Source: Stropharia rugosoannulata
Taxonomy: Eukaryota; Basidiomycota; Agaricomycetes; Agaricales; Strophariaceae
DNA: 64,000 nt
NCBI GenBank assembly: GCA_028532985.1
Contig: JANCIK010000005.1
Coordinates: 248,001 to 312,000, forward strand
Reading direction: 5' to 3'
The position numbers were made by a program, and so were the translations under genes. Positions within the stretch are counted from its first letter, which is position 1, and each line of letters starts with the position of its first letter. This document shows, piece by piece, positions 8,050 through 64,000 of this stretch. The notes below the pieces were generated by a model. The model ran no database searches, was not told the origin of the DNA, and saw nothing but the letters and a program-made list of their open reading frames with translations.

Positions 8050-8056
8050 TATAATT
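8050..8056 (+). promoter_or_regulatory. TATA-like box
   Basis: TATAATT lies 66 bp before ATG 8116, the spacing seen for the other short genes of this window. Confidence 0.4.
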
Positions 8057-44035: not shown

Positions 44036-44039
44036 TTTC

Positions 44040-44800: not shown

Positions 44801-44814
44801 TGATGTTTTTACTA

Positions 44815-45555
44815 TTAATGGCTGACAATTTTAATAGTAACAGTTAATGTTTTTACTATTAACTAGTACCGGCCGATGTTTTTACTATAATTATTAACTA
44901 GTACCAGCCAATGTTTCTATTATTAATGATTAACTAGTACCGGCCGATGTTTTTACTATAATTATTATCTAGTACCAGCCGACATTTCTACTATTAATGA
45001 TTAACTAGTACCGGCCGATGTTTTTACTATTAATGGCTGACACTTTTACTAGTACTGGCCGATGTTTTACTATTAATGATTAACTAGTTAACTAGTACCG
45101 GTCGATGTTTTTACTATTAATGGCCGACACTTTTACTAGTATTGGCTGATGCTTCTACTATTAATGGCTGACACTTTTATTAGTATTGGCCGATGTTTTT
45201 ATCATTAATAGCTGATACTTATACTGATATTGGCTGATGTTTTTTTTTTGTGATAATGGCCGACATTTTCAGTCAACATTTCTACTAGTAACAGCCGGTG
45301 TATTTCTATGTAGCAGCCAATATCTTTGATAGTACAAGCTCATGTCTTACTAGTAGCAGCCAATATGCTAGTTACAGCCATACTAGTCACAGGCAATATT
45401 TTCTACAAGAATTTTTACTAGTAATGGCTGATGTTTATGCTAGTGATTTCTGCTAGTAATGGTCAATGTATTTGCTAGTAACAGTTGGCATATTGACTAG
45501 TACCGGCCGATGTTCTTACTAGTAAATGACCAATGATTTTACTACTTATGGCCGA
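44815..45555. repeat. Minisatellite array 2 (GATGTTTTTACTATTAATG / ACTAGTACCGGCC units)
   Basis: Diverged units of roughly 40-50 bp combine GATGTTTTTACTATTA with ACTAGTACCGGCC. They become more degenerate to the right (ACTAGTAACAGC forms). The array ends where the LTR of element 0 begins. Confidence 0.85.
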
Positions 45556-46283: not shown

Positions 46284-47384
46284 ATGGCATCAACGATGGC
46301 TCTCACATTACCCATTATGCCTGGCTGCTTGCACCCATCAGCACCGAAGTTCACAGGAGTTCCGGCACATCTTGACATGTTCTTTGACGAGCTTGAGATG
46401 CTTACACAAGCATGTAATCTGGCAGTTGAACAAATGATTAAATGGACAGTACTGTATGCACCAACAGATGACTACAAGCTATGGAAATATGCAGCTCAGG
46501 TGTGCGAAGACAACTGGGAAATCTTCAAGGCACACATCTATGGCTTCTATCCAGGGTCTGACAATGATCGGAGATACAGGCTTGCTGACCTCGAGGTGCT
46601 TAGCACACAGCAACAGCACAAGGCTATGAAAACACTAGACGATTTCGGCACATACTACCGTGAATTTTTCAAAGTCTGGTACTTTCTCAGCTGCCGAGAT
46701 CGCATCACCGACAGGGAGGCAAGCCGGCTTTTTATTCTAGGATTTAATGCACCATTTAGGACCAAGCTCAGGACACAGCTCAAGCTTCAGTATCCGAGGC
46801 ATCATGAGGACGACCCTTTTGGACTTTCAGAGTTATATGATGTGGCAATATTTGTAATCTCATGCCGCTTCCCAGATCCAGAAACAGCCACACAGGATTA
46901 CGGTACAATGGAGCAGACATCTCACAGCAGTATTGGTCAGAGCACACCCAGCCCGGAATTGCATAATCAGCACCAACCCAAGCATGATAATGATACACCT
47001 TCTGTAATGCACCAGGTTGAGAAGCAGTCATCAAAGCAAGTTCCTTCTGCTACACTATACAGCTCATTCCTTGCACAGACGACAACTACACCAGGGGACA
47101 ATGGATATCAACAGGACGCAGAAGACGTGCTCGCATCGACGGTGGAAATACGCTCAGATCTCAAGATAAGTACCAGGGTTAATTCTGAGGAACTTGCAGA
47201 CGACAGGCAGAAGGAATTGCTGTTTAACTCAGAGACAGAACATGTGAAGCCAGTATCACAGAAGCAGAGTACCTTCCCACATTCATGGCTAGAGGGCGAT
47301 TACATGAACCCATCAGAACAAGAACGAGCCGATCTGGAGAAGGTATATGTCTTAGCATGTGCCACAGTATCACAAAACCGTTGA
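46284..47384 (+). pseudogene. Retrotransposon Gag-like ORF, truncated by insertion of element 1
   Basis: ATG 46284 starts 315 bp after the primer-binding site. The first ~200 residues resemble Gypsy Gag capsid domains (FTGVPAHLDMFFDELEMLTQ, RLFILGFNAPFRTKLRTQL), followed by a low-complexity Gln/Ser/Thr region. No zinc knuckle, protease or RT follows. The frame ends at TGA 47382-47384, which is formed by the first three bases of the LTR of element 1, so the natural C-terminus is lost. Confidence 0.75.
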
Positions 47385-48585
47385 CAGGGCTGCTTTTTGG
47401 CTACGGGTGTAAACAGTTAGAAGGTCCGTTAGTGGGATAGCTGCGTGCGGGAAACACAGAGAGACTAGAGTTGAGCCTGCCTCATAGTCTATAGCTATCA
47501 GCACGCGAGCATCATGACTACAAGCGCCTGCGCGCACCGTATCGCGAGAAGGATTGGTCAGCGAGCTGCACAGTCTAGAGTGCATAGTTTGGCCGTCTGT
47601 GCGAGCGATCAGGAAAGCGTAGAACGGTTAAGCACCAGCAAAGAGCGGTGTGAGTACAGCTGAGCGGATACCAAAGGCGGTGTGAAGGGCTGTGCGCGTA
47701 TCTCATATGCGCGCATTGCAAAGGCAGAATTTGTCTAAGTCCACACATCATGTGACCGTGGCGGTGCGCATCAAAATAGACGCGCAAAAACCCGAGGGAA
47801 CAAACGACATGCGCGCAGCGAATGCCAAGGGATCGGGACACTCGAAGGGAAGCCCGGATGCGATGCACGGACCTTTGGCCGTGCGTTGCTAGTATTTACT
47901 TTACCTTACTATTAGTACACATGCGCGCATTGCATATAAACCTGTATCCTTGTCTATAGTAATTTAAGCAATTGTCTACCCACTAGATCTGTGTGCTGGG
48001 TTCTGTCTCAGGCCGTCAGCGGGCTGTGTTTAGCTTTTGTTAGGGTTTTAACTGTGAAGTATTTGTGAATCATAGGAGTTTTGGATAGCTTCTGGCCACC
48101 GGGTCATTTGGAGAGCTCAGTGAGGAGTCAGTACAACCGTGTACGGAAACTCGCACTGTAGTGTTTAGACTGTGAGACTGCACTGCCGGGTGAAAGACTT
48201 TGGAGAGTCTTGGATTGTTGGACTTTGGAGAGTCTGCACATCGTACGAGGTCACCGGACCCGGAAGTGCGCGCAGCGAAGCCGTTCGCTAAAAACAACTT
48301 ATTTCATTTATCATTTTGCTTTGTGCACGCCATTAGCGACCGGGCTATATCCGAGATTTACTAGAATTAAACCCCTCCTTACAAACGAACTTGCTGTTAC
48401 AAAGACTAGAGGAAACGAGGTGCGTGCATCGCACGCCCAGAACAGGAACCAGAGCAGAGCATAGATTATACTGGCCATTTAGTTTAGGGCGTTCGCTCGA
48501 TCTAAGGGATAGGATCTCGCTCCGCTGGGTGTGTGTGTGTGTTGTGTTTCGCGATTTCGAGTCTAGCTACGCAGTAGACCTCTCA
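47382..48585 (+). mobile_element. 5' LTR of Gypsy element 1
   Basis: This 1204-bp LTR starts TGACAGGGCTG and ends CTCA. Boundaries follow from alignment with the inverted LTR at 57268-58680 (TGACAGGCCTG... and ...ACCTCTCA) and from the primer-binding site 2 bp downstream. A conserved TATAAA lies at 47934-47939. It is rich in GCGCGC-type words (for example ATGCGCGCATTGC twice). A (GT)n run lies at about 48526-48542. It belongs to the same family as the LTR of element 2 but is clearly diverged. Confidence 0.85.
47934..47939 (+). promoter_or_regulatory. LTR TATA box
   Basis: Within GCATATAAACC. It aligns with CTATATAAACT in the inverted LTR of element 2 (about 58000-58008), so it is a conserved LTR promoter element. 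Confidence 0.6.
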
Positions 48586-48587
48586 TC

Positions 48588-48606
48588 TGGAGCCCACCGC
48601 GAGGGG
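48588..48606 (+). other. Primer-binding site of element 1
   Basis: TGGAGCCCACCGCGAGGGG lies two bases after the LTR. It is nearly identical to the site of element 0 at 45951, so the two elements prime from the same tRNA. Confidence 0.75.
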
Positions 48607-48769
48607 AAGGTTCAGAAATCTCATTTAGTGTTTCGGGAACTACGGCTTGCGCCTATTACAATAAATTTCAAAAATTTCAAATAAAACGGGGACGAGTAAC
48701 AAGTGAGGCAAATTTCCTGCGCCTTCATCGCTCGCCGAGCCAGAAGAAGCCAGACCATCCTTTGGAACG

Positions 48770-50722
48770 GTGCCTTCACGCGAGAGAACCACGAGGAGCA
48801 AGAAAGACGCTGAGCTGGTAGAGCCGTTGGTAATTACACCGACGCAAGACAGAAAAGCAAAGAAAAGAGCGAGGGAGGAAGCGCAGTTGCAGATCGAAAC
48901 TCAGGGATTAGCGCAGCGCATCCCAGGTGCGCTCACCGAAAGCGACTCGGAATTAAGAGTAGGGATTAGTGGATTTTGGGGACCACCATCTGGCATTGAA
49001 TCAGAAGACCAATTAGTGGATGGTGATATTACACTTGAAACCGCACCATTCGGTACTTCTGATAGCCAAGCTACCCAAGACACCCCTCCTCCATTCTCGG
49101 AAGTATTTGGAACTGCTAAGACATCCGCGCAGCGCACGGCAGAAAATAGCGAAAGTGAAGCAGAGCGCGTAGCGAGAGATATATTTGAAGGAGACTTGTC
49201 AGATCTCTCAGAAAGCGAACGAAATTCACCCCCACGAGAACCAGAAACTATGCCTAAGGATATGTCCATGCCAGTACGCGGTGCGCGCGGTGCGCCGAGC
49301 TTCGATCCTGCTGCAGAGCGCAATGAGCTGCCGCGGTACTTCGAAGACCTGGAGGATTGGTTTAAGCGCGCGGAGGTGACAGAGGATGATGAGAAGAGGG
49401 GATATGTAATAAAATATGTACCCATGCAGACGGCGGAGGAGTGGAAGAATTTACCAGGTTATGATACCAAGGGGTACGAGGAGCTCAAGAAAATGATTCT
49501 CAACGAGTACCCGGAGGTGATCAGCATTCAGACAGGGTCCATTGCGCGGCTCAAGAAGCTCTGCAAGGAGAATCAGCACATCTCGGAGGAAGACCTCCAG
49601 GTGTTGCTGGACTTCAAGCGCGTGTTCTTGGCCGAGGCCGCTAAGCTCACGAAGGCGCCTACCCTGCTCGCGAATCATACCTTGGTGACTTACTTCACCA
49701 ATAGTCTCACTGCGGGGTTCAGGGATCGATTGTTTAATAAACTGGACATTGATTACACGACGTGCGCATCGTTCGACAAGTTCTTGACTGAGCGCAATAT
49801 ACAGTTCACCGCACCTACTGGGGTGACGGTAGAAGCGCGCACCGAGGACATGTACCCTCTCAAACAGGTAGCCGAGATGGCGGAACAAATGGCTCGTACC
49901 AAGAACCCAAGCACTACGCTGAGCCTAGGGCGCGAGAGCACTGATGGACTCATGCCGGTGCCTGCCATCAAGACTGAGGCCGCGGATGTTGGTTCGCTGC
50001 GCGGAGAGATTGAGGACCTGAAAGGGTTCTTCGCCTCCTTCAAGGATACCTTGTCGCTAGTGGAGAAGACAGTGGCGAAGTCAAAGGAGTCGAGTAAGAA
50101 AGAGTTGGAGGACATTATCCGCAATGTCATGGCTGCGCGCGCTGCACCGATGTCGGTGCCTGTGCAACCAGTAGCCCCTATGATGCCCATGAGCGCACCG
50201 GGTTTTGGTGGACCGCCGCCTAGGCCCTTCCAATACCAACAACGCCCGGAGCCTCGCTGCTTCTACTGCAAGCAGACGGGACATGTGGTTGCTGAGTGCA
50301 TAGTAAGGCAGCAAGACTTGTCAGCGGGGAGGATTGTCATCACAGAGGCGGGGCGCTTACAGCTACCTGACGGGTCATCGATACCTTGGGACCCTTCGCG
50401 CGCGATTAAAGAGCGCGTCGATGAATGGCATAAGAAGAACGGACAGCCCGCGCAGCAAGCGTATATGGCACCCGTCCATCCCTCGTACATGGGTATACCT
50501 CCTAGCATGGTATACTCGCAGATGTACCAACCGGCCAGTTCCTTGGACGAGACCTATGAGGAGCAGATACACGCACTTCAGCAAGAGCTGGAGAGTAAGA
50601 AGGCGTTTCTGAAGGAGCGCGCATCGGCGAAGACGCCTGAGGAGGTGATAGAAGAACAGCATCAGCTAATAGCAACTATGAAAGCCGAACGCGACGCTGC
50701 ACTCAGTCAGGGTTTCGATTGA
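48770..50722 (+). CDS. gag: Gag polyprotein of Gypsy element 1 (about 650 aa)
   Basis: Structural capsid protein that packages element RNA in cytoplasmic particles. A charged N-terminal region is followed by a capsid-like domain (about residues 185-350, with LPRYFEDLEDWFKRAEV and LLDFKRVFLAEAAKL) and a CCHC zinc knuckle CFYCKQTGHVVAEC (about residue 495). The C-terminus is a Gln/Glu-rich coiled-coil-like tail. The frame is open from about 48703 but has no ATG before about residue 158: the natural start may be ACG/GTG at 48767-48770, a lost ATG or a spliced leader. The stop is TGA at 50720-50722, 5 bases before the ATG of the next frame. Confidence 0.85.
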   Translation: MPSRERTTRSKKDAELVEPLVITPTQDRKAKKRAREEAQLQIETQGLAQRIPGALTESDSELRVGISGFWGPPSGIESEDQLVDGDITLETAPFGTSDSQATQDTPPPFSEVFGTAKTSAQRTAENSESEAERVARDIFEGDLSDLSESERNSPPREPETMPKDMSMPVRGARGAPSFDPAAERNELPRYFEDLEDWFKRAEVTEDDEKRGYVIKYVPMQTAEEWKNLPGYDTKGYEELKKMILNEYPEVISIQTGSIARLKKLCKENQHISEEDLQVLLDFKRVFLAEAAKLTKAPTLLANHTLVTYFTNSLTAGFRDRLFNKLDIDYTTCASFDKFLTERNIQFTAPTGVTVEARTEDMYPLKQVAEMAEQMARTKNPSTTLSLGRESTDGLMPVPAIKTEAADVGSLRGEIEDLKGFFASFKDTLSLVEKTVAKSKESSKKELEDIIRNVMAARAAPMSVPVQPVAPMMPMSAPGFGGPPPRPFQYQQRPEPRCFYCKQTGHVVAECIVRQQDLSAGRIVITEAGRLQLPDGSSIPWDPSRAIKERVDEWHKKNGQPAQQAYMAPVHPSYMGIPPSMVYSQMYQPASSLDETYEEQIHALQQELESKKAFLKERASAKTPEEVIEEQHQLIATMKAERDAALSQGFD

Positions 50723-50727
50723 GTCTG

Positions 50728-51996
50728 ATGAAGGGAAACGCAGGCAGAGTTATGCGTAGCGGCTCTGATAAACCCAAGAACCCGGAGGGCGCAAATAAGA
50801 AGTTACCAATCAGAAATATACCCAGAGCATCAGTTGAGGACGCGAGTGATGATGAGGAAGAAGAGTTGCGAGAGGTAGTGGAGGAGCAAGGTGCGCGCAG
50901 CGCACCAGTGAAGAAGAAAGTAGTGTTTGAGGTTCCTGCAAAGGCTGGGCCTAGTGCACGACCAGCAGCAGTGCCATATGTAATGGTACCTCCGCTGCGC
51001 GTACCAGAGAAAGTAAAACCTAAGGTTAGGGAAGAGCCCATACCTGTAGTAGAGAAGAGGAAGCCGGCCTATAAGCTGCGCGCACCTATCGAAGATGAGG
51101 CGCAGGCTGACGCAGTCCTCAAACACTTAGAAAACCAGAAAATTGAGATCACGCAGGGCCAGTTGTTAGGCATATCGACTGCAGGTTTCAGAAGAAAGTT
51201 CGTTGAGCGCATAGTACCAAGAAAGGTACCATTGGATTTGAATACGATGCGCGTATTACAACAAGACTACGATGAAGAAGAGCGTGAAGTAGATGAAGCT
51301 ATCGCGCGGTTAGCAGAGGAAGAAGAGGAAGAGGAATTTATGCAGATGGATGAGCTACCAGTGGCCACTTTCCTTACTTGCTCAGATGAGCGTAGTGGAC
51401 TGCAACCTGGGACCATCATCATGGAAGACCCGTACAAGCAGTACGTCTCGACTCTGCAGCCGGGCGAAAAGCCTAAGGGGCTTATTGTGGCGCGCGAATC
51501 GCACCATCTGAAGGCGGTATTTCCGCTCATCAACGGCAAAGGACATGCGGAGACGTTGCTCGACAGTGGATCGCAGATTGTGTCAATGGCACAGGACACC
51601 GCTGAGCGCTTAGGACTTAGTTGGGACCCGGACTTCACTATACAGATGCAGAGCGCGAATAAGCAGGTGGAATCCACCAAGGGCTTAGCGCGCAATGTAC
51701 CGTTTGTGTTTAACGGACTGACAGTGTATTTACAAGTGCATGTCATCAGCGCAGCGGCTTACGAGGTACTCTTGGGCCGGCCGTTCGAGATCCTCACGGA
51801 GAGCAATGTGAAGACGCGCGGCAATGGAACGGTTGAGCTTACGCTCACCGATCCCAACACACAGCGCAAGCTGGTAGTACCCACCTATAACCGAGGGTGC
51901 AGTCCCAAGATTGTGCAGCACGAACCTAAATTGCAGGACCCTGGCACGACGGAAAACCCTAGCGCAGATCAGGATTTTCAATCCTCGATGATTTGA
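50728..51996 (+). CDS. Retroviral-type aspartic protease ORF of element 1 (422 aa)
   Basis: This is a separate reading frame between gag and pol. An acidic, disordered N-terminal half (runs of Glu around residue 205) is followed by the protease: GHAETLLDSGSQIVS (catalytic Asp at about residue 278, DSG motif) and a downstream VLLGRPFEIL, which matches the ILGR-type flap-end motif. It would cleave Gag and Pol. The ATG at 50728 is chosen because it follows the gag stop closely. The stop TGA (51994-51996) overlaps the pol ATG (51996-51998) as TGATG. Confidence 0.85.
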   Translation: MKGNAGRVMRSGSDKPKNPEGANKKLPIRNIPRASVEDASDDEEEELREVVEEQGARSAPVKKKVVFEVPAKAGPSARPAAVPYVMVPPLRVPEKVKPKVREEPIPVVEKRKPAYKLRAPIEDEAQADAVLKHLENQKIEITQGQLLGISTAGFRRKFVERIVPRKVPLDLNTMRVLQQDYDEEEREVDEAIARLAEEEEEEEFMQMDELPVATFLTCSDERSGLQPGTIIMEDPYKQYVSTLQPGEKPKGLIVARESHHLKAVFPLINGKGHAETLLDSGSQIVSMAQDTAERLGLSWDPDFTIQMQSANKQVESTKGLARNVPFVFNGLTVYLQVHVISAAAYEVLLGRPFEILTESNVKTRGNGTVELTLTDPNTQRKLVVPTYNRGCSPKIVQHEPKLQDPGTTENPSADQDFQSSMI

Positions 51997-54900
51997 TGCG
52001 TCAAGGAGAGGTCGCGTTGATGTTTGACAGAGATGATCGCACGGGGAAAATAGAGATAGCGGGGTACGCGCTACCAAAGAATAAGAAGCGGTTTGGGAGC
52101 GCTGAGCTCAGGGATGTATACATGGCTCAAGCAGTACATGAGGCAAAAATGGAGGATGATGAGAAAGAAAGAATATACAAGTATTTTCAGCAGCGCGAAT
52201 GGCGCAAAGAGGAAGTAGTCAAGGGAGAGCCTAGAGGGCAGTTCCGCGCATCGCACGAGGAACAGGTCCCTAGTAAGAAACAAGGAGTAACGCGTAAGCA
52301 CTTGACTGGCAAGAATGCCACAACCGTTACGGTGCTCGCAGGAAAGAAGTATAAGCCAGTGGCTGAGAAAGTCAGGCCCGTCTATCAAGATTTACCAGAG
52401 AAGTTTAGAATAGTGAGGGAGATTAAAGGGAACCCACTGAAGGACATGCCACAATTGTCACCACATCCGCCAGACTTCGTACCTACAGGTCGGTACACCG
52501 CTGAGTGCATGGAAGGGATTGACAAAGCGCATGAAGGGGATTTCCTGTGGTCCGAGGAGCGCAAGCTGGTGCATCAAGTTTTCATGCAGCAGAACGAGGC
52601 GTTCGCATGGGATGACACAGAGAAGGGTAGATTCCGTACGGACTTCTTCCCTCCAGTAGATATTCCCACTGTAGAGCACACGCCTTGGGTATTGAAGAAC
52701 ATTCCAATACCACCTGGGATGTATGAGCGCGTATGTGAATTCATCGCCACCAAGATTCGCGCAGGCACGTATGAGCCCTCGAGCTCATCGTACCGGTCGC
52801 GCTGGTTTACAGTGACCAAGAAAGACGGGGTCTCGTTCAGAATTGTGCACAGTCTCGAACCGTTAAATGCGGTAACCATTGCACATTCAGGACTACCTCC
52901 AGCAGCGGAGAGTCTAGCGGAACACTTTGCGGGGCGCGCATGTGGCGGCATCCTGGACTTGTATGTTGGGTACGATGAGCGGCTGTTAGCTGAGTCCTCT
53001 AGAGACTTGACTACATTCCAGACGCCATTCGGTGCGCTGTGCTTAGTAACCCTACCTATGGGATGGACGAACTCCGTGCCCATCTTTCATGAGGATGTCG
53101 CATATATACTACGCGATGAAATACCTGAAGTTACAGAGCCCTATATAGATGATGTACCTATTAGGGGACCTAAAACGCGCTACGAGTTAGAAGGAGGAGG
53201 ATACGAGACGATACCAGAGAATAAAGGAATAAGGAGATTTGTGTGGGAACACATGTTGAATGTCAACAGAATCGTGCAGCGCATGAAGTACTCAGGAGGA
53301 ACATTTAGTGGAAAGAAGTCCATACTGTGCGCAGCTGAGATAGTAGTGGTGGGGCACTTGTGCACATACGAAGGGCGCAAGCCAGCACCTGATAAAGTGC
53401 ATGCGATTCTCAATTGGGGACCATGCAAGAATATCAGTGATGTGCGCGCATTCATGGGTACAATGGGTCTGCTACGGATTTACATCTCGGATTACGCGAA
53501 GCGCGCAGAGCACATACAGCGGCTATTGCGTGGGAAAGAGCCCTTTGAGTGGGGGCCCGCTCAGCAAGCTAGCATGGACTCGCTGAAAGACGGTGCATGC
53601 AACGCACATTGCGTGAAACCACTGGACTACACATTGCCAGGGCCGATTACTTTGGCTGTAGACACATCATGGCGAGCAGTAGGATTCTATATTTACCAGC
53701 AGGACCCACAAGATTCGAAGAAAAGGGTATATGCGCGCTTCGGATCAATACTGTTAACGGAACGCGAGCAGCGTTTCTCACAGCCCAAACGGGAGTTGTA
53801 TGGACTCTTACGTGCGCTACAAGCCTGTTATTATTGGCTCATCGGTGCGCGCAAGCTGGTGGTGGAAACGGATGCCAAATACCTGAAGGGCATGTTGGAT
53901 AATCCGGGCATGGGCCCTAATGCGACTATTAATCGCTGGATAGATAAAATACTTATGTATCACTTCCAGTTGAAACATGTTGCGGGCAAAACCTTTGGTG
54001 CGGATGGTTTATCACGTAGGGAAGGGCAACCTGGAGATGAGGGGTACGCGCACTCCGAAGAAGATGATGATCAGGAGGTGGGACCGCTCGAATACGAGAA
54101 AGTCTATGAAGATGACCCAGATCCCCTGGACTTTGAGGAATTCAAGGAACAGATTGATGATCGCGGAGGGTATCTATATACAGGACTACTCAACGAGTTG
54201 TTTGAAGGTCCCTCTGCGCGCAAGTTACCAGAAGCGCGCTCTATAGGCTGTTTCCAGCAGGAGCTCGAGCGCGCACGGAAAGAGACGGAAGCGGAAAAGC
54301 GGGCCGTGCGGGACTTCATACAGAAAGAGAGTGTGCCGCTCGCGCAGCGCGAGTATTTAGAGAAATTCATACTAGCACATGCAATACCCGACTCCAAGAT
54401 AGAGGATCTGGAGGATGAGGAGTACGATGAGCGCAACAGGACGTCTGCAGGAAAAGATATGGATGAGAAATTGCCGATGATACGCTACTGGTTGCAGAAT
54501 CCAACCACTAGGCCTAAAGGCATGACAGAGCGAGAATATCAGAATTTTACGAGGAATGCTCGTAACTTCTTCTTAGACAAGGATGGGCGGATGTACTGGA
54601 GATCCATAGATGACGCGCATAAGTTGGTAATAGATCAGGCGCAGCGGACACGCATGCTGCGCTCAGCGCATGACAGCTTGGGGCACAGAGGAGCGTACGC
54701 TACGCGCAAACTGCTAGCTGAGCGCTTCTGGTGGCCTGAGTTGGAAAGGGATGTCTACTGGTATGTGAAAACATGTCATGTCTGTCAGTTAAGGCAGAAG
54801 ACGATCATCCAGATCCCGCGCACCGAGACACACACGCCATCTATCTTCCAGCAACTACACGCGGACACTATGCACATGTCCCCGGCCTCCAATGGGTACA

Positions 54901-55931
54901 ATTACATAGTGCACGGAAGATGTGCGCTGAGCTCATGGGCAGAAGGGCGGCCATTAAAGAAGGAGAATGCCCGTGCAATAGCGCAGTGGATATTCGAGGA
55001 CATTATCTGCTGTTGGGGCTGTCTACAAGAAATCATCACAGATAACGGTGGACCGTTCCGCGCAGCGCTCAAGTATTTAGAAAAGAAGTATGGGATTACA
55101 GGGATTACTATCTCCGCGTACAACTCGCAAGCGAATGGAAAAATAGAGCGTCCTCATTGGGACATAAGACAGATGTTGTGGAAAGCGTGTGGAGGGACAG
55201 AAGGCGCGCATAAGCGTTGGAGTAGATTCTTCTACCATTTGTTGTGGGCGGATCGTATCACTGTGCGACGAGGATTCGGGTGTTCCCCATTCTTCATGGT
55301 AACGGGCGTGCACCCCATACTACCATTCAATATAGCAGAAGCGACTTGGCTGGTGAAACTACCAGATCGCGTACTGACTACGGAGGAGTTAGTAGGGTAT
55401 CGCGCACGCGCACTAGCCAAACATCGCGACACAGTAGAGGAGATGCGCGCACGAGTATCAAAGACGAAAAGAGATGCGATCAGGGCATTTGAAAAGAAGC
55501 ACTCGGCTAAAATCCGTGACTATGTGTTTAAGCCAGGAGATGTAGTGCTAATGAGGAACTCGGGCATAGAATCCAGTCTGAACTGTAAGATGCTCGCACG
55601 ATGGAATGGGCCTTACATCATTATCGCACGAAAAGATGGTGGAGCGTACTTAGTGGCAGAGATGGATGGCTCTGTGTTGAAGGATAAGGTGGCGGCGTTC
55701 TGCCTCATTCCTTACTTTGCACGGAGGCAGCTGCGCTTACCAAACGGTTTGGATGATATAATTGATCAGACCAAGGAGAACCTAGCTAAAATGTTAGAGG
55801 CGCAGGACTATGAGCCAGCTATTCCCAAAGATTATATCTTTGATGAGCCCGGTGTACCCTCGGGTAGCGGTGCACTTACAGTGGAAGAGGATGAAGAAGA
55901 TGATGATGACTGGGGCGAAGAAGACACTTAG
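51996..55931 (+). CDS. pol: Pol of Gypsy element 1: reverse transcriptase, RNase H, integrase (1311 aa)
   Basis: The order RT-RNaseH-integrase defines Ty3/Gypsy. RT spans about residues 240-420, with LDLYVGYDE and the YIDD catalytic motif near 383. RNase H starts near 550 (AVDTSW, ETDAKYL, ADGLSRR). Integrase begins with the HHCC finger (HDSLGHRG ... CHVCQ, about 890-930), then the DDE core: ADTMH (about 957), TDNGG (about 1015) and GKIERPH (about 1049, catalytic Glu). An acidic C-terminus ends EEDDDDWGEEDT, and no chromodomain is seen. The frame is uninterrupted, so the enzyme could be active. Translation probably reinitiates at TGATG. Confidence 0.95.
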   Translation: MRQGEVALMFDRDDRTGKIEIAGYALPKNKKRFGSAELRDVYMAQAVHEAKMEDDEKERIYKYFQQREWRKEEVVKGEPRGQFRASHEEQVPSKKQGVTRKHLTGKNATTVTVLAGKKYKPVAEKVRPVYQDLPEKFRIVREIKGNPLKDMPQLSPHPPDFVPTGRYTAECMEGIDKAHEGDFLWSEERKLVHQVFMQQNEAFAWDDTEKGRFRTDFFPPVDIPTVEHTPWVLKNIPIPPGMYERVCEFIATKIRAGTYEPSSSSYRSRWFTVTKKDGVSFRIVHSLEPLNAVTIAHSGLPPAAESLAEHFAGRACGGILDLYVGYDERLLAESSRDLTTFQTPFGALCLVTLPMGWTNSVPIFHEDVAYILRDEIPEVTEPYIDDVPIRGPKTRYELEGGGYETIPENKGIRRFVWEHMLNVNRIVQRMKYSGGTFSGKKSILCAAEIVVVGHLCTYEGRKPAPDKVHAILNWGPCKNISDVRAFMGTMGLLRIYISDYAKRAEHIQRLLRGKEPFEWGPAQQASMDSLKDGACNAHCVKPLDYTLPGPITLAVDTSWRAVGFYIYQQDPQDSKKRVYARFGSILLTEREQRFSQPKRELYGLLRALQACYYWLIGARKLVVETDAKYLKGMLDNPGMGPNATINRWIDKILMYHFQLKHVAGKTFGADGLSRREGQPGDEGYAHSEEDDDQEVGPLEYEKVYEDDPDPLDFEEFKEQIDDRGGYLYTGLLNELFEGPSARKLPEARSIGCFQQELERARKETEAEKRAVRDFIQKESVPLAQREYLEKFILAHAIPDSKIEDLEDEEYDERNRTSAGKDMDEKLPMIRYWLQNPTTRPKGMTEREYQNFTRNARNFFLDKDGRMYWRSIDDAHKLVIDQAQRTRMLRSAHDSLGHRGAYATRKLLAERFWWPELERDVYWYVKTCHVCQLRQKTIIQIPRTETHTPSIFQQLHADTMHMSPASNGYNYIVHGRCALSSWAEGRPLKKENARAIAQWIFEDIICCWGCLQEIITDNGGPFRAALKYLEKKYGITGITISAYNSQANGKIERPHWDIRQMLWKACGGTEGAHKRWSRFFYHLLWADRITVRRGFGCSPFFMVTGVHPILPFNIAEATWLVKLPDRVLTTEELVGYRARALAKHRDTVEEMRARVSKTKRDAIRAFEKKHSAKIRDYVFKPGDVVLMRNSGIESSLNCKMLARWNGPYIIIARKDGGAYLVAEMDGSVLKDKVAAFCLIPYFARRQLRLPNGLDDIIDQTKENLAKMLEAQDYEPAIPKDYIFDEPGVPSGSGALTVEEDEEDDDDWGEEDT

Positions 55932-56056
55932 ATGCGCGAGCATCGTAGGAAGACAGCAACCACAATATAATATATTGGGTAAAGAAGATGGGGATACAAA
56001 GAGAGCTAGCTACAGACGCCCCTTTAAGGCGTGCAGCGCACATTGAGCCAGGATAT

Positions 56057-57175
56057 CTACTGGGCCGGTTTGTCCTCGGTGGCAGTAACACCAGTAACGT
56101 CGAGGCTGCGCTGCAAGATGACAAGCTGCTCGACGAGGAGCACGCGGCGCTTGAGGATGAAGTCGACCTTGTGGAGATCACAAATGATCTCTGCTTGTAA
56201 ATCACCAATGAGGCGGCGCATCACCAACTCGGAAGGGTTACCCGTATTAAGGGGCTCCTTAAGGAGGTTAGCGGCGGCATCAAGACAAGCATTGACCTTG
56301 TCATTGTCCAAAACGAGAGAAGTGCCTGGGGAAGAAGGGTTAGAAAAGATTAGTAAGAGAGTGGTGCAGTGCGCGCACCTTGCATAATAAAAGGAGAGTC
56401 GGGGAACGTAGGAACGCCCTCTGAGCCCAGCCTGGCTTTCTTAGGAGAGGCTTCACCTGCGGCGGCGTCACGGAGTGAGCGACGAAGCTCGGTCTGACGA
56501 TAAGTCATGCCTCGACCAAGGGGACGAGAGCGGTAACTAGGAGTGTCTCCGTGCTCGCGCTGATATTTCTATAAGAATCTAAGTGTGCGCAGCGGAGACG
56601 GGTCAAACACACACCTGTTTAGGAGTATCAGGAGGCGCGGTGCGCTTCTTGTTAGGGCTCGGCTCGGGTGTATGCTGCCTGCTGGGAGGACCTCCCTCAG
56701 TCACGGCTTCAACTTTATCGTCGAGGGCCATCTTTTTGAGGAGCATGTAAAGTTGCATGTTAGTGATGTCTGGTAAAGGAACCAAGGTTAGCCACACCTT
56801 GTCATCGTCAGAGTCGGGAGATGTAGTACCTCCAGGCACGGAGGCGGTCTCAAGGTCCGCAGTTGCGGAACGCGTAAGAACGCGAACATTGCGCTGTGCG
56901 CACCAAAAAGGGGATTAAGTATAGAAAGGGTTAGGAGAGGGAGATGAGCGCACCGGTCCAGTAGGGGTATGGGTGCGCTGACGAGAAGCGGCAGCCTTAG
57001 CCTTGAGGACTTGTTCATGCAAGTTGATAAAGGCATTGGCGGCAGGGGAGAAGGAGCGAATGTGGTGGTCAGCCTCGAGCGACGTATATATGGTGCGAGT
57101 CTCATTAAGGATCTCGATAGCTTCATTGTTGTTTATAACGTGAGTGATACTGCCGTGCGCGTTGCGCCAGCGGTT
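56057..57175 (-). CDS. Antisense intron-containing gene D of element 1, 5' end lost
   Basis: It is encoded on the strand opposite to gag-pol and ends 126 bp from the pol stop. Exons on the minus strand are 57175-56954, 56893-56830 (or 56798), 56769-56615, 56568-56379 and 56325-56057, with short GT-AG introns, two of which start GTGCGC. Peptides include INNNEAIEILNETRTIYTSL, QLYMLLKKMALDDKVEAVTE and a last exon rich in helix (KVNACLDAAANLLKEPL). Its first exon is missing because the element is cut at 57267. The paralogue in element 2 (63162-64000) keeps that exon. Function unknown; it has predicted helices, a Ser/Pro linker and no signal peptide. Confidence 0.75.
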
Positions 57176-57267
57176 CTGCAATCGTGCCAGACGAAGTCAG
57201 TAAAATACAACAAAAGAACTGCGCGGTGCGCGCACCAAATCAACAGCAAGTAGCTCCAGGCTGCCGG

Positions 57268-58680
57268 TGAGAGGTCTGCCGCGGGGCTAGACTCGAATCA
57301 CAAGAAACACAACACACACAACCCCAGCGGAGCGAGATCCTATCACCTAGATCGAGCGACGCTCTTCAACTAAGCGGGTTATAGATGTCTACGCTCTCCT
57401 GGTACCTCTCCGCTGAGCGGATCGTGATGTTTAAGGGTCTCGTAAGTTTCGTCCAGATGTCCGCTGTACAGTGCCTGCAAGTTCGTTTTTAAGGAGGGGT
57501 TTAATTCTAGAAGTCTCAGATTAATGTCTGGGCGACCTCCGCTGAGCGCAGGGTATCGATAGTAAGGTATAGTTTTGATGGTGGCTCCGCAGGGCTTATT
57601 CCGCTGAGTGGGTTTGAGGTCCGGTGACCGATGCAGATGCTCACACAAGCTGGTATTCCCAATTGTGCCTCGCTCCGCTGACTATTCAAAGTCGTTCCGC
57701 TGGGACTGTCCAAAGTCCTATTCCGCTGAGGCTATCCAGAACCTCGTTCACCCGGTGGTGCAGTCTCAATTCTCAAAACACTACAGCGCGAGTTTTCGTA
57801 CACGGTTGCACTGACTCCCCGCTGAGCTCTCCAAATGACCCGGTGGCCAGAAGCTATCCAAAACTTCTATAATTCACAATACACTTCACAGTAAAACCCT
57901 AACAAAAGCTAAACACAGCCCGCTGACGGTCTGGGACGGAGCCCAACACACAGATCTAGTGGGTAGACAATTGCTTGATTTCCGTAGTTACAATTACAAG
58001 TTTATATAGACGCGCGTTGTGTACTAATTTAGGTGGAGAGTAAATACTAGCAACGCCGGACCAAAGGTCCGCTGAGCGCATGTGCCTCCGCTGGGCGCCT
58101 TGATGGCTACTCCGCTGAGCGCGACCTGATCCTGTTGTTTTACCAGCCTCCGCCGAGAGCCACTGTTAAACTCCGCTGGGCGGTTCCGTCTTGGTCATCG
58201 AGGCCTGGTTACTGCTGCCAAAGTTCCCCAGCGGAGCCCGTGCTGTGTGCGTTGTTTATTCCTTCGGGCATCACACGCTCCAGCGCGCGTGCCACGGTCA
58301 CCTGATGAGTGGACTTAGGCAAATTTCGCCTTCGTGATGTGTTCCGCTGAGTCCCTTTGAGACGCCGTCTACACACAGTCCTGCTCGTCGCCTTTGATAC
58401 TTTCTGCTCAGCTGTACTCCTGCCTTCCGCTGGGACGGCAGTAACCGTTATGTGCCCCGCTGACTGCTATTCCGGGTACTTCAGCTGTGTACTTATGGCC
58501 TGTACAGTCCGCTGAACCCCACACAACCGCCCGCTGAGCACATGCGTGATGATTTGTGATGCACGCGCTGAGCGCTGAGACGGCTGACCAGGCTAGTCAC
58601 CGCTCCGCTGTACCCCTGCACTCCAGCCCAAACCACCCGCTGTGGCCACTTACAGCCTTGGTGTAAACGCAGGCCTGTCA
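57268..58680 (-). mobile_element. 3' LTR of Gypsy element 2, inverted
   Basis: Read on the minus strand it starts TGACAGGCCTG (58680) and ends ACCTCTCA (57268), 1413 bp. It aligns with the LTR of element 1 through landmarks such as GCAATTGTCTACCCACTAGA, TTTTGGATAGCTTCTGGCCA and GATAGGATCTCGCTCCGCTG. It is preceded on that strand by a polypurine tract, which makes it a 3' LTR of an element lying to the right. The sequence next to its CA end is not a primer-binding site, as expected for a 3' LTR. It carries many CAGCGGA insertions or replacements relative to LTR 1. Confidence 0.8.
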
Positions 58681-58690
58681 TCTCCCCTTC
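58681..58690 (-). other. Polypurine tract of element 2
   Basis: The minus strand reads GAAGGGGAGA immediately before TGACAGG of the LTR, the expected plus-strand priming site. It fixes the orientation of element 2 (minus) and places 58681 onward inside the element. Confidence 0.75.
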
Positions 58691-59107
58691 ACTAAAAATT
58701 TTGACTGTCCTCAGTCAAGCTCCTCCTGTATTTTTAGACCTTAGTACTGTCCCGCGTGCACTTTTAGTGCCTCATTTTCTATTTCCAGCTTCCCCGGCGC
58801 CTATTTGCCTATTTTTAGTTCTCAGTCGTCTCCGCTGGTTACTTCCATTGTTATCTGGTTCTTCCTCCGTTTAAGGATATTCCTTCCCCTTTTTAGCATT
58901 GCACCGTCGCTTCTGAACCGCCGCTCTCCATGTAGATTACCTGAAAGTTTATGTGACGCCGCCACCCGTTATTTTATCTTCCAGAAAATTCTTTCGCTGA
59001 GCGAACTTCTGTCTTATAAACATCGCGTACTGCTTTCTATCCCTCCCCATTCTTTCTTTTCCCTCCCTTCCTGCAGACCCCCTGCCCCACTATCCTCTCT
59101 AGTACTC
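58691..59107. other. Promoter-side region of antisense gene A
   Basis: This pyrimidine-rich plus strand leads into gene A. The reading frame of gene A is open upstream to 58805, but its N-terminus there would be a hydrophobic, low-complexity stretch. I regard it as untranslated leader. Several CCGCTG motifs occur. Confidence 0.4.
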
Positions 59108-61186
59108 ATGGCCTTCCGAAACTTCGACCGTCGCCAGCGCGAGAAAGAGCGCGTTGAAGCCCAGCTCGACCAGGCCGATCGATTCCGCCGCCTCCGCCCA
59201 GCGTTGGCCGTATATGATGAGTTCGAACAGCTGGCTGGGTCCGCTGCCCCTTCCGAAGAGAGCTTTGCCCGCTTGGAGGAACTTCGCGCTCTCATCACGG
59301 ACCGCGTTGAGCAACACCTTTCCGTGCACGCCTCCGATGGGCTCTATCACTCCGGCGTTCGCGAACTATGCATTATCCTCTCCTGCATCGCGGAGATGCA
59401 AGACGGAGACGACCCCGTGCTGGCCGCCAATCACCATCAGAAGCTGTGGTTCACAGGGGGCTACTCGCCTCTTGCCTCCTACTGTGAGTTTTTCAAGACG
59501 GCGTTCCCTACCCAGTGGGACGGTACCGCAATCCCTTCTCTCCGTCCTGGCCCTCTCACTGTCGTACCTCCCGCTGTGACTCCTCCTGTGGCCACTCTGG
59601 CAGGTCTCAACCTCCCGGACGACGACATTATTATGATTTCTGACCCTGAAGACGAGCGCGCGGCTTCTCCTCCGCCCGTAGTACGCAAAGACAAGCGCAA
59701 ACGCCTTCCATCCCCTCCCATCGTTAGTCTGGCTCCTCCCGCGGACAAGCCCCCCAAGCGCTCTCGCCAGGCCGCTATTGCTGCAAATGCGGCCATCGCG
59801 GGTACGTGACTTTTATTTATTCTTCCTTTTCTTTTGTCTATCACCTCACTATTCTTTTCTCAGCTGAAATGGCCGACCGCGCTTCTCCCGAGCCCTCATC
59901 CTTTCCCGCCCGTCCCAGCGCTGGGGCTTCGTCGCTCCTTACCGACAGCGGGATAGAGGAGATCGTCGTTACACGGGCTGACAGCAACAAAGTCGCTTAT
60001 AAGTCCACCTACCCGGTATTGAATGTGCTCCCCCCTGTCTACTCCGCTAAGCTGGCTCTCGCTGGCGCGCCCCTTCCCGACGCTATTGGCATGGATGCCC
60101 TCCCCGCTGAGAACCGTCTGCAAGGCGCCATTATAGTGAGTGCTTTATTTCTTCTCCTCTCCGCTGACTGTACTTATTTCTTATTTTTAGAAAGGGATGG
60201 TATGCAATCACTGCGCGCGCCCGTTCAATGCCCGTATGAACGAGGGCTTGCACCAGTGCATCTGTCGAGGGTGGGCTCGTAACTGCTGCACTTGCAGTAG
60301 TCAACAGAAGGGCAAATGTCTGTTCTGCTGCGAACCAGCGGAGCTCGACAAGGCGATTGAGGACACCACCCTCTGGCATCGCACATCGTTAACCAGTAAG
60401 TTCCTATTTATTTATTTTTGTCCTTCATTACTTATTTCTTTCTTTCTCCTAGGTCTTCTTTCCGGTTTCGCGCGCCTGAGCGCCTATACCGAGCAAGCGC
60501 GTGCCGCGGAGGAGCAGCGTCGCTCAGCGGAGCGCTTATATTTCGCCCAACTTACTGAACTCGTTCAGTTGGCGCGCGCTATGGCTCTGACGCTCCCCAC
60601 CGGCATAATTGTTGGCCCTCGTTTTCGAGACTGCGAGACTTTCGATGCGCTGCGCGGAATGGACCTCGACCAACTTCAAGAGGCTTATCGTTCCCTCTGT
60701 GCCCCCGCCTCATATGAAGATCCTGCTGTCGTCGCCCCGCTGGCGAAGTTCTATGATCCCCAGTTTCCGCGTTACGATCCTTCGACATTTATCCCTTCCC
60801 CTCAAGCTGACCAGGCGATTACCTTAGAAGCGTTTAACGCTCTGGAGTCACAAGAGTTTGAGGAGGCCGCCGTTCGTCAGGCCAGCGAGGCCGATACCCT
60901 CATCGCTGAGGAGAAGAAGAAGAAACGGCGCTCTGCCAAGAAGCTGGCCGCTGAGCGGACCCCCGCTGTGCTTGCAGAGGGTCCCACCGCCTCTTCCTCC
61001 GCTTCCTCTGGGCCGCCGCCACCCCTTGTTCCCGCTGCCTCTTCTTCCACCACCAAGGTCTCGGTTTCTGCGCCCCCTGCCCCCGCGTCCGTTCGTCCGA
61101 CACCGCAGCGCCGACCCCCTCCTCTTTCCTCCTCTCGCGTCCCCAGCGAGGTTGATGCCGACGAGGTTCCCGCGGACAGGGATTGA
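59108..61186 (+). CDS. Antisense gene A of element 2: Cys-rich zinc-binding-like protein (634 aa, four exons)
   Basis: Exons are 59108-59801, 59864-60135, 60191-60395 and 60453-61186; the introns are 62, 55 and 57 nt with GT-AG ends. All joins are in frame. The N-terminal part has charged coiled-coil-like helices (RRQREKERVEAQLDQADRF) and a basic Pro/Lys stretch (about 200-220). At about 320-370 a compact cysteine cluster reads CNHCARPF ... CICRGWARNCCTC ... CLFCC, resembling a treble-clef or RING-like zinc site. A second coiled-coil (EQARAAEEQRRSAERLYFAQ) and a disordered Ser/Pro tail follow. A nuclear or nucleic-acid role is plausible from the zinc site and basic stretches. I recognise no named family. 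Confidence 0.7.
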
Positions 61187-61634
61187 GGGATGTCACGCTC
61201 TCCGCTGGTTGTCAGGCCTTGTGGCCTTTATTTCTTTTATCTTCTTGTTCCCTTGTATCTCTTTTACTTTACCTGGCATATGTAAAGTAATTAAATGTCT
61301 ATCATAATTTATATGCCTTCTTTTTGACCCTCTTTTACTTGTGTGAACCTGAAATTTCCGAGGTCCGTTGTCATTTTCTTAAGTCTTCTGTCAGGATTTC
61401 GCCCGCTGAGCGACCTGCCGACCTCTGATTGGATGACTTAATTGTTTACCCAGGTTCTTCTACACTTGACTCTCTCCTGCTGCGTGTCCCTGGTTTCTTT
61501 CTCTTCTTCTCATGTCCGCTCAGCGGACTTCTTTCCCACACGTGCTCCGCGGCCAAATTTTAGCGGGCTCTCTCCCCTCACTATAAAATCAACTGTCCCC
61601 AGTTGACAGACTCTTACTCTTCTTTTTCTCCGTC
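61187..61634. other. Intergenic between antisense genes A and B
   Basis: It contains a perfect palindrome, TCCGCTCAGCGGA (about 61515), and other CCGCTGAG copies. A TATAAA-like CACTATAAAATC at about 61580 lies 50-55 bp before ATG 61635, a likely promoter of gene B. Confidence 0.45.
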
Positions 61635-62107
61635 ATGCAACGCTACCAGCGCACGAATGTCGCCCGCCAGTTCACCACGATCCTCAAGCAGCTGGCCGTC
61701 CACGCGGAAATCACAGAAGACTCCGCTGAAACAACAGCCCACCTGCCATTACAGTCCGCCCAGGCCGTTGTCCGCGCACTGGTAATGCCCCTGTCCCTTA
61801 GACTCTACTCCGCTGACCATCTCCACAGGACCGTATTGCTCTCCCGCTGAGATTCATTGACTTTAATCGCCAGTTTCTGGCGTTTCTCATGACCATCGTG
61901 TTTTACGAGGCCCGCGCTCAGCGGAAGTTCAGCGATGATCACTTCGACCCACGCCTACTCAGTAATGCCGCCTTACGCGTCCTCGACCGATACAGTCATC
62001 TGGGCATGCCATTCCATCTGCTGCCTTCTTCTGAGCGAATTGCAGCCGATGTTCAAGAAGTGGACCCTGATGCCGCGCTCATCGTAGATGACGTGTGCTC
62101 TGATTAG
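61635..62107 (+). CDS. Antisense gene B of element 2 (141 aa, two exons)
   Basis: Exon 1 is 61635-61781 and exon 2 is 61829-62107; the 47-nt intron (GTAATG...CCACAG) itself contains CCGCTGAC. The product is mostly helical (RQFTTILKQLAVHAEI, LRFIDFNRQFLAFLMTIVFY) and ends in an acidic tail (VDPDAALIVDDVCSD). A TATA-like box precedes the ATG. No known domain. Its position in a compact head-to-tail series with A, C and D, all on the same strand, suggests a common cargo set. Confidence 0.6.
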
Positions 62108-62176
62108 GGTGGTCCGCTGCGCTGACCGTCTTCGTATATAATATAACACCCTCTGTCTGTATTCGTATATGCCAAC

Positions 62177-62721
62177 ATGCCCTCCTTGTCCGCTGAGAGT
62201 AATCTCTTATTACGTGCCCATTCCGATCCTCGCATCCTTCGTCTCGATGCTTTGTCCCGTCGTCCGCTAAGCGACATTCCTCCTCACGATGTAGCCCGGG
62301 TCTGCCGGATCTATGTAACTGCCCTTCACTACATTCTGGACTCCGCTGCGGAGGAACAGCTACCCATGAGTGTCTGTCTCCCGCTGCTTAACCGAGTTCA
62401 AGATCACGCTGTAAGCCCATTCTCCGCTGACCATGCACTCCCACTGAGTAGTCCGCGCAGCGCGGCCTAGAGCTGACCGAGTCCACCTGTCATTCACCGC
62501 TTCTTTCTCATCTCTGCGCTCAGCTGTATTACACCGAACTTGTGCTACGTCTGTGTGGTACCAACGACGCTGAGCGCTACGGCATCCTTAATCACACCGA
62601 ACACTTTCAACGCCTCCATTATGCCGCCCAGCATTTTTACCAGGAGGACTTCTTCCCCGTCTGTCCCCTTTTCTCTTCCTTCTCCGCTGCGCTGAGACCC
62701 AGATTATGTCAGGATGTTTGA
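62177..62721 (+). CDS. Antisense gene C of element 2 (about 143 aa, two exons)
   Basis: A TATA-like TATATAATATAAC lies about 40 bp before ATG 62177. Exon 1 is 62177-62410. The 113-nt intron (GTAAGC...CTCAG, with CTGACC) leads to exon 2, 62524-62721. The predicted protein is helical (VARVCRIYVTALHYILDSAA, YYTELVLRLC) and ends near RPRLCQDV. A further intron near the end (GTCTGT...CTGAG) is possible and would change the C-terminus. No family recognised. Confidence 0.55.
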
Positions 62722-63161
62722 GGTATTGCGCCCCTTCCTTGGTTTACTCCGTAGGGTACCCTTGTTACAGTAACCAGAGTAAATGGCTATTACATGTGGT
62801 GCCTCCTTTGCTATTTGAAATGACAAGTATCTAGTTAGGCACTATGTATTGTCGGTGCCAATACCTGATTCGGACATAATTTTTCTATATGCGGTAATCA
62901 CACGATCAGCCCCCGCTGAGCGCTTTCAGCTAGGCGCGCCTCTCTGCTGGATCTCATTTCGTCTATCAACTGCTCCCGCTCTGCACCCCGTTTTATGCGA
63001 GCCTTGTCTCTACCTCCAGCGTTCATACCATAACTCCGCTGGAAGTCTGGTCCGCTGGGATGCCACATTCCTCGCTGCTGGCCGCCCTTCATTAGGTCCC
63101 CTGCGCTCTGCTGAGCCTATATATATGCCCTACTCTCCTACCTTGAATCACTCAACCACTA
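62722..63161. other. Intergenic between antisense genes C and D
   Basis: It contains several CCGCTG motifs and a TATATATG at about 63119, some 40 bp before ATG 63162. No other gene visible. Confidence 0.4.
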
Positions 63162-64000
63162 ATGTCCAACGCACCCGCTCCGCTGTACAACTTTAGTAAT
63201 GTCAAGCACCAGCTGGCATTAATCCAAGATATCAGAGGCTTGGCTTCCGCCATGCCTTCCAACTATACCGGGAGCCTCGAGCTTCTGGCTATTGACTTAG
63301 TACGCACAACACTCAGCTGGTCCGCTGGGTCTTTTACTCCGCTGACCACTCGAACTTTTTTAGAACCGCTGGCGTGATCCCCACGGCGGCATTACTCGTA
63401 TCATTAATAACAGCGAGGCTGTTGATATTCTCAACGAGACGCGTGCCATCTACACCTCCTTAGAGGCGGATCACCACTTCCGCACTTTCTCTCCCGCTGC
63501 CAACGCTTTTATCACTCTGCATGAGCAAGTTTTAAAAGCGAAAGCCGCTGCTTCGCGCCAGCGCATGCATACTCCCACTGGACCAGTACGCTGTGTGCTT
63601 GCTGCCTCTCTTTATCCTTTTAACCGTCCGCTCAGCGCAACGTTCGCCTCCTCTCGCGCTCCGCTGCCGATCCTGAGACGGTCTCTGCCCCTGGAGGTAC
63701 CTCCTCCCCCGATTCTGATGACGACAAGGTGTGACTGACTTCCTTCACCCTTTTAGATATTACTAACATGCAGCTGTACCTCCTCCTTAAAAAGATGGCC
63801 CTCGATGACAAGATCGAGGCTGCCACTGAGGGCGGAGTACCTAGCCGCCAGAATACCCCAGAACCTAGTCCTTCGAAGAAGCGCTCAGCGCCTCCTCCCG
63901 ACACTCCTCGTCAGGTTCGTTCTGTTGCGTCTTCCCTCCCTCGTTACTTTCTTACTTCTATGTCAGCGGGAGCGCACTGAGGCCAGCGGACATCGCACTC
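63162..64000 (+). CDS. Antisense gene D of element 2, runs off the window
   Basis: Exon 1 is 63162-63299 (MSNAPAPLYNFSNVKHQ...), exon 2 is 63364-63585 (NRWRDPHGGITRIINNSEAV...), exon 3 is 63636-63696 (or 63728) and exon 4 is about 63757-63914, followed by an intron starting GTTCGT. Exons 2-4 match the antisense gene of element 1 (57175-56615) at protein level, with many third-base changes. Intron 3 is ambiguous: both sides of a ~27-nt unaligned stretch look coding in both copies, and reading through gives a stop (GTG TGA) here but not in element 1. Function unknown. Confidence 0.7.

Follow-up and report, generated by a model that had tools for sequence, protein, structure and literature searches.

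A Ty3-type retrotransposon of Stropharia rugosoannulata with four spliced antisense genes, one of them hypervariable

The stretch of Stropharia rugosoannulata DNA analysed here (the window; 64,000 nucleotides, C5:248001-312000) ends within a Ty3-type long terminal repeat (LTR) retrotransposon, element 2 (E2, family I), that lies on the minus strand and is inserted into another LTR retrotransposon, element 1 (E1, family II). Element 2 comprises 16,082 bp (C5:305268-321349; in window numbering 57268 to an equivalent of 73349), and the window holds its 3' part. Four plus-strand genes, A to D, with 10 GT-AG introns in total, separate its pol from its 3' LTR. Its features in the window are as follows.

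57264..57267, no strand: left copy of the 4-bp target-site duplication (TSD) CCGG; right copy at C5:321350-321353
57268..64000, minus strand: part of element 2 within the window; the element goes on to C5:321349
57268..58680, minus strand: 3' LTR of element 2, 1413 bp, with TGAG...GTCA ends and exact boundaries
58681..58691, minus strand: polypurine tract (PPT) adjoining the 3' LTR
59108..61186, plus strand: gene A, 4 exons, 3 introns, 634 amino acids, hypervariable among copies
60191..60395, plus strand: exon 3 of gene A, Cys-rich domain with six invariant Cys, spaced C-X2-C-X14-C-X8-C-X2-C-X7-C in this copy
61570..61588, plus strand: TATA box of gene B with a PPT-like tract, similar to the stretch that adjoins the 3' LTR; kept in both families
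61635..62107, plus strand: gene B, 2 exons, 1 intron, 141 amino acids
62135..62146, plus strand: TATA-like core promoter of gene C
62177..62721, plus strand: gene C, 2 exons, 1 intron, 143 amino acids
63118..63127, plus strand: TATA-like core promoter of gene D
63162..64477, plus strand: gene D, 6 exons, 5 introns, 342 amino acids; its last 477 bases lie beyond the window

The partner (5') LTR is located outside the window at C5:319937-321349 and shows 100% identity over 1413 bp. The complement of the PPT, TCTCCCCTTC, directly follows the left LTR, and a primer binding site (PBS) complementary to a tRNA 3' end stands just before the right LTR. Because the PPT lies beside the LTR of the window and the PBS beside the far one, element 2 is placed on the minus strand, in agreement with a sequence-only reading of the window that had relied on the LTR at 57268-58680 and the adjoining PPT. 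To the right of the window the minus-strand frames encode gag, an aspartic protease, RNase H and an integrase with H2C2 zinc domain; the zinc knuckle of gag is a weak match below the cut-off. Minus-strand pol, a second LTR and a matching CCGG duplication, all expected by that reading beyond 64 kb, are present there. The pol frame of element 2 is interrupted and split over several frames, and in many other copies pol is a single open frame of about 1320-1346 codons. Paired TG..CA LTRs, TSD, PBS, PPT, the order protease (PR), reverse transcriptase (RT), RNase H (RH), integrase (INT) and a Ty3-like RT, the marks of Ty3/Gypsy elements, were all found. The anatomy of a Ty3-type LTR retrotransposon with four spliced antisense genes between pol and 3' LTR is next to certain.

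The region from pol to the 3' LTR measures about 5.9 kb and contains the four antisense genes, with gene D and the pol frame tail to tail and 124 bp between their ends. At least four intron-bearing plus-strand genes had already been proposed for this position, and A to D bear this out. All five introns of gene D show GT..AG in 8/8 aligned copies of both families; its coding length is 1029 nt in seven complete copies, with introns varying by one to ten bases. Intron 3 (63697-63756) harbours an acidic stretch, SPDSDDDK, that is conserved and coding-like and ends with TGA in most family I copies and with TGG in the copy Ec and in family II, so that alternative splicing is possible. One in-frame stop occurs in gene B of the copy Ed. 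Promoters were read in E2, Ec, Ed, Ee and Ef of family I and in Eb2 and L049 of family II. In all of these copies a TATA box is found about 40-50 nt upstream of the ATG of B, C and D; that of gene A is present in E2, Ec and Ef and absent in Ee. The sequence beside the 3' LTR (58681-58720), consisting of PPT, A-rich box and the inverted repeat TTGACTGTCCTCAGTCAA, resembles the gene B promoter (61570-61610) with its parts TCTCCCC, TATA and TCAACTGTCCCCAGTTGA. This likeness occurs in both families, and the promoter region of gene B is a possible second PPT.

With LTR-pair identities of 99.3-100% in seven family I copies and of 99.6% in the family II copy Eb2, the elements are recently inserted. 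Antisense introns persist in the seven family I copies, which fits the earlier argument that introns in this direction stay in the element RNA and survive retrotransposition. An exact 4-bp TSD was found for 12/17 LTR elements or solo LTRs inspected. In 11 of these 12 exact cases a CG stands at the centre (ACGT, CCGG, GCGC and similar; the exception is TAGG), and two inexact pairs differ by a single G-to-A exchange at the CG, suggesting an integrase preference for CpG. At C3:3563564-3564978 and C3:3574692 (copy Ef) the flanks are swapped, TCGG/ACGA at one position and ACGA/TCGG at the other, which looks as if recombination between two copies had taken place.

To assess the distribution of these genes, the 48.0-Mb genome (20 contigs) was searched. 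It contains the families Hydrophobin (46 matches) and Fungal_trans (34 matches), neither of which occurs in 14 control genomes, as expected of a fungal host. All copy numbers are lower bounds from first-hit searches (for example, 65 scored among 286 gag candidates), and matches were merged into loci for A, B and C; the number for D refers to matches. We obtained at least 122 matches at 96 or more loci for exons 3-4 of gene A, at least 95 matches at no fewer than 94 loci for exon 2 of B, at least 93 matches at 92 or more loci for exon 1 of C and at least 95 matches for exon 6 of D, compared to at least 65 for gag and at least 63 integrase stretches. Internal stops are absent from 91/95 (B exon 2), 89/93 (C exon 1) and 92/95 (D exon 6) of the listed matches. 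The genes travel together: B follows within 2.5 kb downstream at 85/96 A loci, and C within 600 bp at 87/94 B loci. Of the gag matches, 49/65 are followed at 7-16 kb in the 3' direction by gene A in opposite orientation (same orientation: 4); shuffling gave a mean of 0.81 such pairs and a maximum of 6 in 1000 rounds. Furthermore, an antisense gene D lies no more than 1.5 kb from the integrase stretch in 63/63 cases, with no case on the same strand; for 57 of them the distance is 127-152 bp.

The antisense-gene LTR element is a genome-wide type in two families, and many further copies of the order LTR-gag-pol-antisense D-C-B-A-LTR, which the sequence-only reading had proposed to look for, were found. 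Single-copy genes at positions without LTRs, which would have spoken against that reading, are not what this genome contains, with at least 96 A, 94 B and 92 C loci and 95 D matches; no single-copy source gene for A to D appeared in the genome searches among the matches listed. Of the earlier term "antisense, intron-rich cargo genes", the antisense block stands. "Cargo" is probably the wrong word for genes that act like components of the element itself.

Family II is represented by element 1 and, among others, by Eb2 (C11:2549856-2565709; LTRs of 1211 bp, TSD ACGG, PBS the same as in family I). Both families share gene order and exon layout. Their gag sequences are about 83-87% identical, with synonymous sites near saturation. 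Between Eb2 and family I the nonsynonymous divergence (dN) is lowest in gag-pol (0.07-0.13), followed by D (0.16), B (0.19) and C (0.27), and highest in the exons of A (0.4-0.9). B and D are the best-conserved proteins of the block, at about 72% and 78% between families, respectively.

Purifying selection acts on B, C and D and, to a lesser degree, on A. In family I (four informative copies) the ratio of dN to synonymous divergence (dS) of B, C and D stays below 0.42, in family II below 0.46. In family I, Ea and Eb carry the A allele of element 2, and the A alleles of Ec, Ed, Ee and Ef stand at a dS of 1.1 to saturation. For these four copies compared to element 2 the dS of gag, PR, RT and INT is 0.05-0.14, of D 0.03-0.11, of C 0.17-0.22 and of B 0.04-0.43. 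A similar picture was obtained for Eb2 in comparison to E1 and L049 of family II, with a dS of 1.7 to saturation for A, 0.27-0.32 for B, 0.22-0.25 for C, 0.10-0.17 for D (0.53 for exon 6 of L049) and 0.12-0.20 for gag-pol. The peak of divergence at gene A, falling off over B, C and D, thus recurs in both families. In L049 (C8:1008900-1013400) exon 6 of gene D is only about 52-54% identical to family I, at the mentioned dS of 0.53 to Eb2, with the rest of D far closer; this suggests a local exchange.

Gene A was modelled in 27 regions, of which 22 were used (Eb, Eb2, L034, L037 and E1 gave no model). Three of the models are short due to broken frames (Ea, L044, L048), and two stops in exon 1 of Ed, L038 and L047 were taken as a putative extra intron. 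At dS<0.35 the 22 models fall into 10 clusters, separated from each other by a dS of 0.4 to saturation and a dN/dS of mostly 0.1-0.3. The Cys-rich exon 3 exhibits a dN of 0-0.11 between clusters, with the exception of the Ed/L046 type (about 0.2), in comparison to 0.05-0.38 for the rest of A. L037, initially considered a family I A gene with family II motif, was dropped; its exon 1 was not found and it is probably interrupted by other sequence. From old but constrained A alleles on young, near-identical backbones we infer recombination together with maintained diversity, not decay or fresh hypermutation. Ten such alleles and the divergence gradient look like balancing selection inside a transposon population, of which no description was found in the open-licence literature.

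Each family is marked by a 7-mer of its own. TCCGCTG occurs 95 times in element 2, counting both LTRs (shuffled sequences: mean 3.0, maximum 8 of 100), and GCGCGCA 79 times in Eb2 (mean 4.6, maximum 17). GCGCGCA stays at chance in element 2 (5 vs 4.0 expected), TCCGCTG is slightly raised in Eb2 (7 vs 3.0, shuffle maximum 7), and both are at chance in the host DNA of window 1-43000 (3 vs 4.7; 5 vs 5.0). In family I the motif density per kb is 12.0 in the LTR, 6.1 in the non-coding and 2.9 in the coding part of the gene block, 4.8 in pol and 5.8 in gag; the orientation is 27:3 in LTR and non-coding gene block and 16:10 in pol. The family I motif is retained intact more often than control 7-mers bearing a CG, in the LTR (57/68 vs 841/1256, Fisher p 0.003), in B to D (60/72 vs 2115/2998, p 0.018) and in gag-pol (133/148 vs 5467/6804, p 0.003), where the p values are rough because four comparisons share element 2 and overlapping words. 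In family II retention is significant for L049/Eb2 (20/21 and 20/24). Given their enrichment and retention, the family motifs probably serve as functional sites. Three findings go beyond the sequence-only reading: gene A is hypervariable, each family has a motif of its own, and the genes have separate core promoters.

None of the proteins A to D matches a Pfam family above the cut-off. The weak match of A to DUF3526 has an E value of 0.089, zinc-finger matches of exon 3 are at E 0.048 or worse, and for B and D no solved structure was matched at E up to 0.1. A tandem-duplication origin of the four genes was rejected, with profile-profile probabilities of 0.3% or less in 14/14 pairs. Right after the Cys-rich domain of A a long helix is predicted (exon 4, predicted local distance difference test (pLDDT) 73.7), and lysine/arginine-rich, nuclear-signal-like stretches occur. 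From these features, A looks like a DNA-binding, dimerising nuclear protein in no recognised family. Fungal zinc-cluster proteins bind CGG/CCG triplets and follow the Zn2Cys6 pattern C-X2-C-X6-C-X5-12-C-X2-C-X6-8-C. TCCGCTG contains such a triplet, but the Cys spacing of A differs from the pattern; with X14 (X16 in family II) where X6 is expected and no Zn_clus match, a Zn2Cys6 identity of A was rejected. No relatives of gag or A were found in viral_contigs.

Element 1, into which element 2 is inserted, spans C5:295382-336596, has the same layout and holds an additional insert of about 10 kb. As the sequence-only reading had noted, its gene D likewise lies antisense after pol; the insertion point of element 2 is exon 1 of this gene. 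Compared to solved structures, its pol matches the Ty3 gag-pol 7q5b best (E 1.3e-32), and the YIDD motif is kept.

47382..57267, plus strand: element 1 (family II), split by element 2; remainder right of element 2, to C5:336596
47382..48585, plus strand: 5' LTR of element 1; LTR pair 96.2% identical, TSD CCGT
48770..50722, plus strand: gag of element 1
50719..51996, plus strand: protease-bearing frame of element 1
51993..55931, plus strand: pol of element 1 (RT, RNase H, integrase)
56069..57267, minus strand: gene D of element 1, opposite in direction to pol and truncated by element 2

Beside element 1, tandem arrays with a unit around ACTAGTACCGGCCGATG occupy window 43529-45515. Window 769-36754 contains long direct repeats with 87-100% identity, spaced about 10 and 30 kb. 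For four open reading frames (ORFs) of 293-366 amino acids at 8056, 26386, 37068 and 46284, Pfam yielded nothing at E up to 0.01.

As a whole, these observations are best explained if A to D are the element's own regulatory set and A reads the family motif, an explanation we hold to be nearly as probable as its opposite. A to D would be expressed from mRNAs of their own, separate from the genomic RNA, and the antisense orientation would let them keep their introns through reverse transcription. Protein A would recognise the family motif, which is scattered across LTR, gene block and gag-pol, and would keep the chromatin or transcription of the family open, as a sequence-specific activator or anti-silencer, with B to D acting as its partners. 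Host countermeasures or rivalry between copies might hold many A alleles in the population by negative frequency-dependent selection, and recombination between co-packaged RNAs might spread these alleles over common backbones. Anatomy, selection, allele age and motif enrichment are observations; expression, binding and effect are proposed. That A or one of its neighbours is a motif-reading regulator appears plausible, somewhat short of probable. More tentative is the full picture of an allele-diversified antisense system for activation or self-recognition, in which a hypervariable Cys-rich protein reads the family 7-mer together with three conserved partners.

Several observations weigh against a motif-reading role of A. 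The structure model of exon 3 is poor (pLDDT 49.7), and this exon has no Pfam match above the cut-off, the best being FYVE_2 at E 0.41. Besides the roughness of the family I statistics given above, retention in family II is mixed, since the E1/Eb2 comparisons (30/36 vs 1751/2352 and 39/58 vs 1929/2836) are not significant. Unlike the targets of the plant VANC proteins discussed below, the motifs also occur densely in the coding DNA of gag-pol, and no more than one short tandem array was found in 57268-64000. Very different A alleles of family I share one motif, so that co-evolution with the motif does not suffice to explain how diverse the alleles are. The divergence gradient is not without outliers either: gene B of Ef, with a dS of 0.04, falls off it, and the INT of Ea (dS 0.15) is out of line, probably due to other sequence inside its 28-kb span.

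The strongest alternative, although rather unlikely, is self/non-self or superinfection control, in which A and its partners act between copies as trans-acting repressor, capsid or packaging partner. Rare A alleles would then escape resident copies, and the motif would serve as operator or packaging signal. The presence in a single genome of ten old A alleles with near-identical backbones, the divergence gradient around A in both families and the family-specific motifs fit such control as well as they fit an activator; there is, however, no sign of repression, and the far less biased motif orientation in pol (16:10) lends no preference to a pure RNA signal. We consider it unlikely that A to D aid the element in another way, such as integration-site choice, nuclear import or replication, with the motif being a separate matter of host-factor sites or composition bias. 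The lack of recognised domains in the best-conserved proteins B and D would suit such a role, and the CpG-centred TSDs in 11/12 exact cases leave room for a targeting helper, but neither the confinement of hypervariability to A nor the different retained motifs of the two families would be explained. That the genes are captured host genes, carried as passengers with benefit to the host or none, seems very improbable: spliced genes with their own promoters do resemble cellular genes, yet they are tightly linked (85/96 A-B and 87/94 B-C loci), lack a single-copy source among the matches listed in this genome and show selection across recent copies of two old families. Chance ORFs, an assembly artefact or an antisense regulatory RNA without protein function are scarcely credible given purifying selection, splice sites kept despite varying intron lengths and about 90 open-frame copies, even if antisense non-coding transcripts are described for other retroelements in passages of PMC7264820.

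LTR elements with antisense ORFs are a known kind; the hypervariable gene and the family motifs were not expected. Ty3 (Metaviridae) has the same gag-PR-RT-RNase H-integrase order and, to our knowledge, no antisense gene block. Within the open-licence literature, with subscription papers and preprints outside this scope, no fungal LTR element with such a block was found. In plants, antisense ORFs between pol and 3' LTR are described for Retand elements, comprising 104 ORFs in 63 clusters, mostly with TRP28 (PF04195) and without known function (PMC11963269). For gene23 of maize Grande an own antisense promoter and a nuclear protein are reported, and the same source names spliced antisense transcripts in plant elements as still to be looked for (PMC7264820). 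Similar to the elements described here, the Retand lineage, with the related maize Grande gene23, rice RIRE2 and PvRetro13, exhibits a long pol-3' LTR region with antisense ORFs, many young copies and family-specific repeats, and its antisense ORFs are thought to be DNA-binding regulators (PMC11963269, PMC7264820). In contrast to Retand, which occurs in plants only and has mostly one protein type, a fungus is concerned here, with four spliced genes, one of them hypervariable, and a dispersed motif instead of tandem arrays. PF04195 was not matched by A to D at E up to 1.

A second resemblance is to the VANDAL DNA transposons of Arabidopsis, whose VANC proteins bind family-specific motifs and remove silencing, as parts of PMC5735166 and PMC10398659 state. 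There as well, a fast-diverging element-encoded protein stands beside a conserved transposition enzyme, and a dense, short, family-specific motif differs between related families (PMC5735166). The VANC21 motifs are reported to be mostly in one orientation, as are 27/30 family I motifs in LTR and non-coding gene block (PMC5735166). VANDALs are, however, plant DNA transposons with motifs in non-coding tandem repeats, whereas the motif here also occurs in gag-pol, and Pfam scans of A to D for VANC kinship (DUF1985/DUF287) gave no match. By analogy, the most likely reading is that A would work like a VANC anti-silencing protein, without detected kinship. Among fungal mobile elements, DNA transposons carry TET/JBP dioxygenases thought to counter silencing by DNA methylation; these are elements with a presumed counter-silencing gene too, differing from ours in element and protein type, and the portion consulted reports no retrotransposon with such a gene (PMC12730594).

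The antisense genes of plant LTR elements have been without known function for decades. With about 90 copies in two old families, this fungus offers a direct view of selection, recombination and motif use. If the proposed role of A is true, this fungus would possess in its retrotransposons a counterpart to the anti-silencing that VANC proteins exert in plants, and a transposon gene would be subject to balancing selection. The evolution of anti-silencing beyond plants is a question that the VANC paper appears to raise (PMC5735166). Should A read its motif, one could test whether sequence-specific anti-silencing also arose in retrotransposons and in organisms other than plants.

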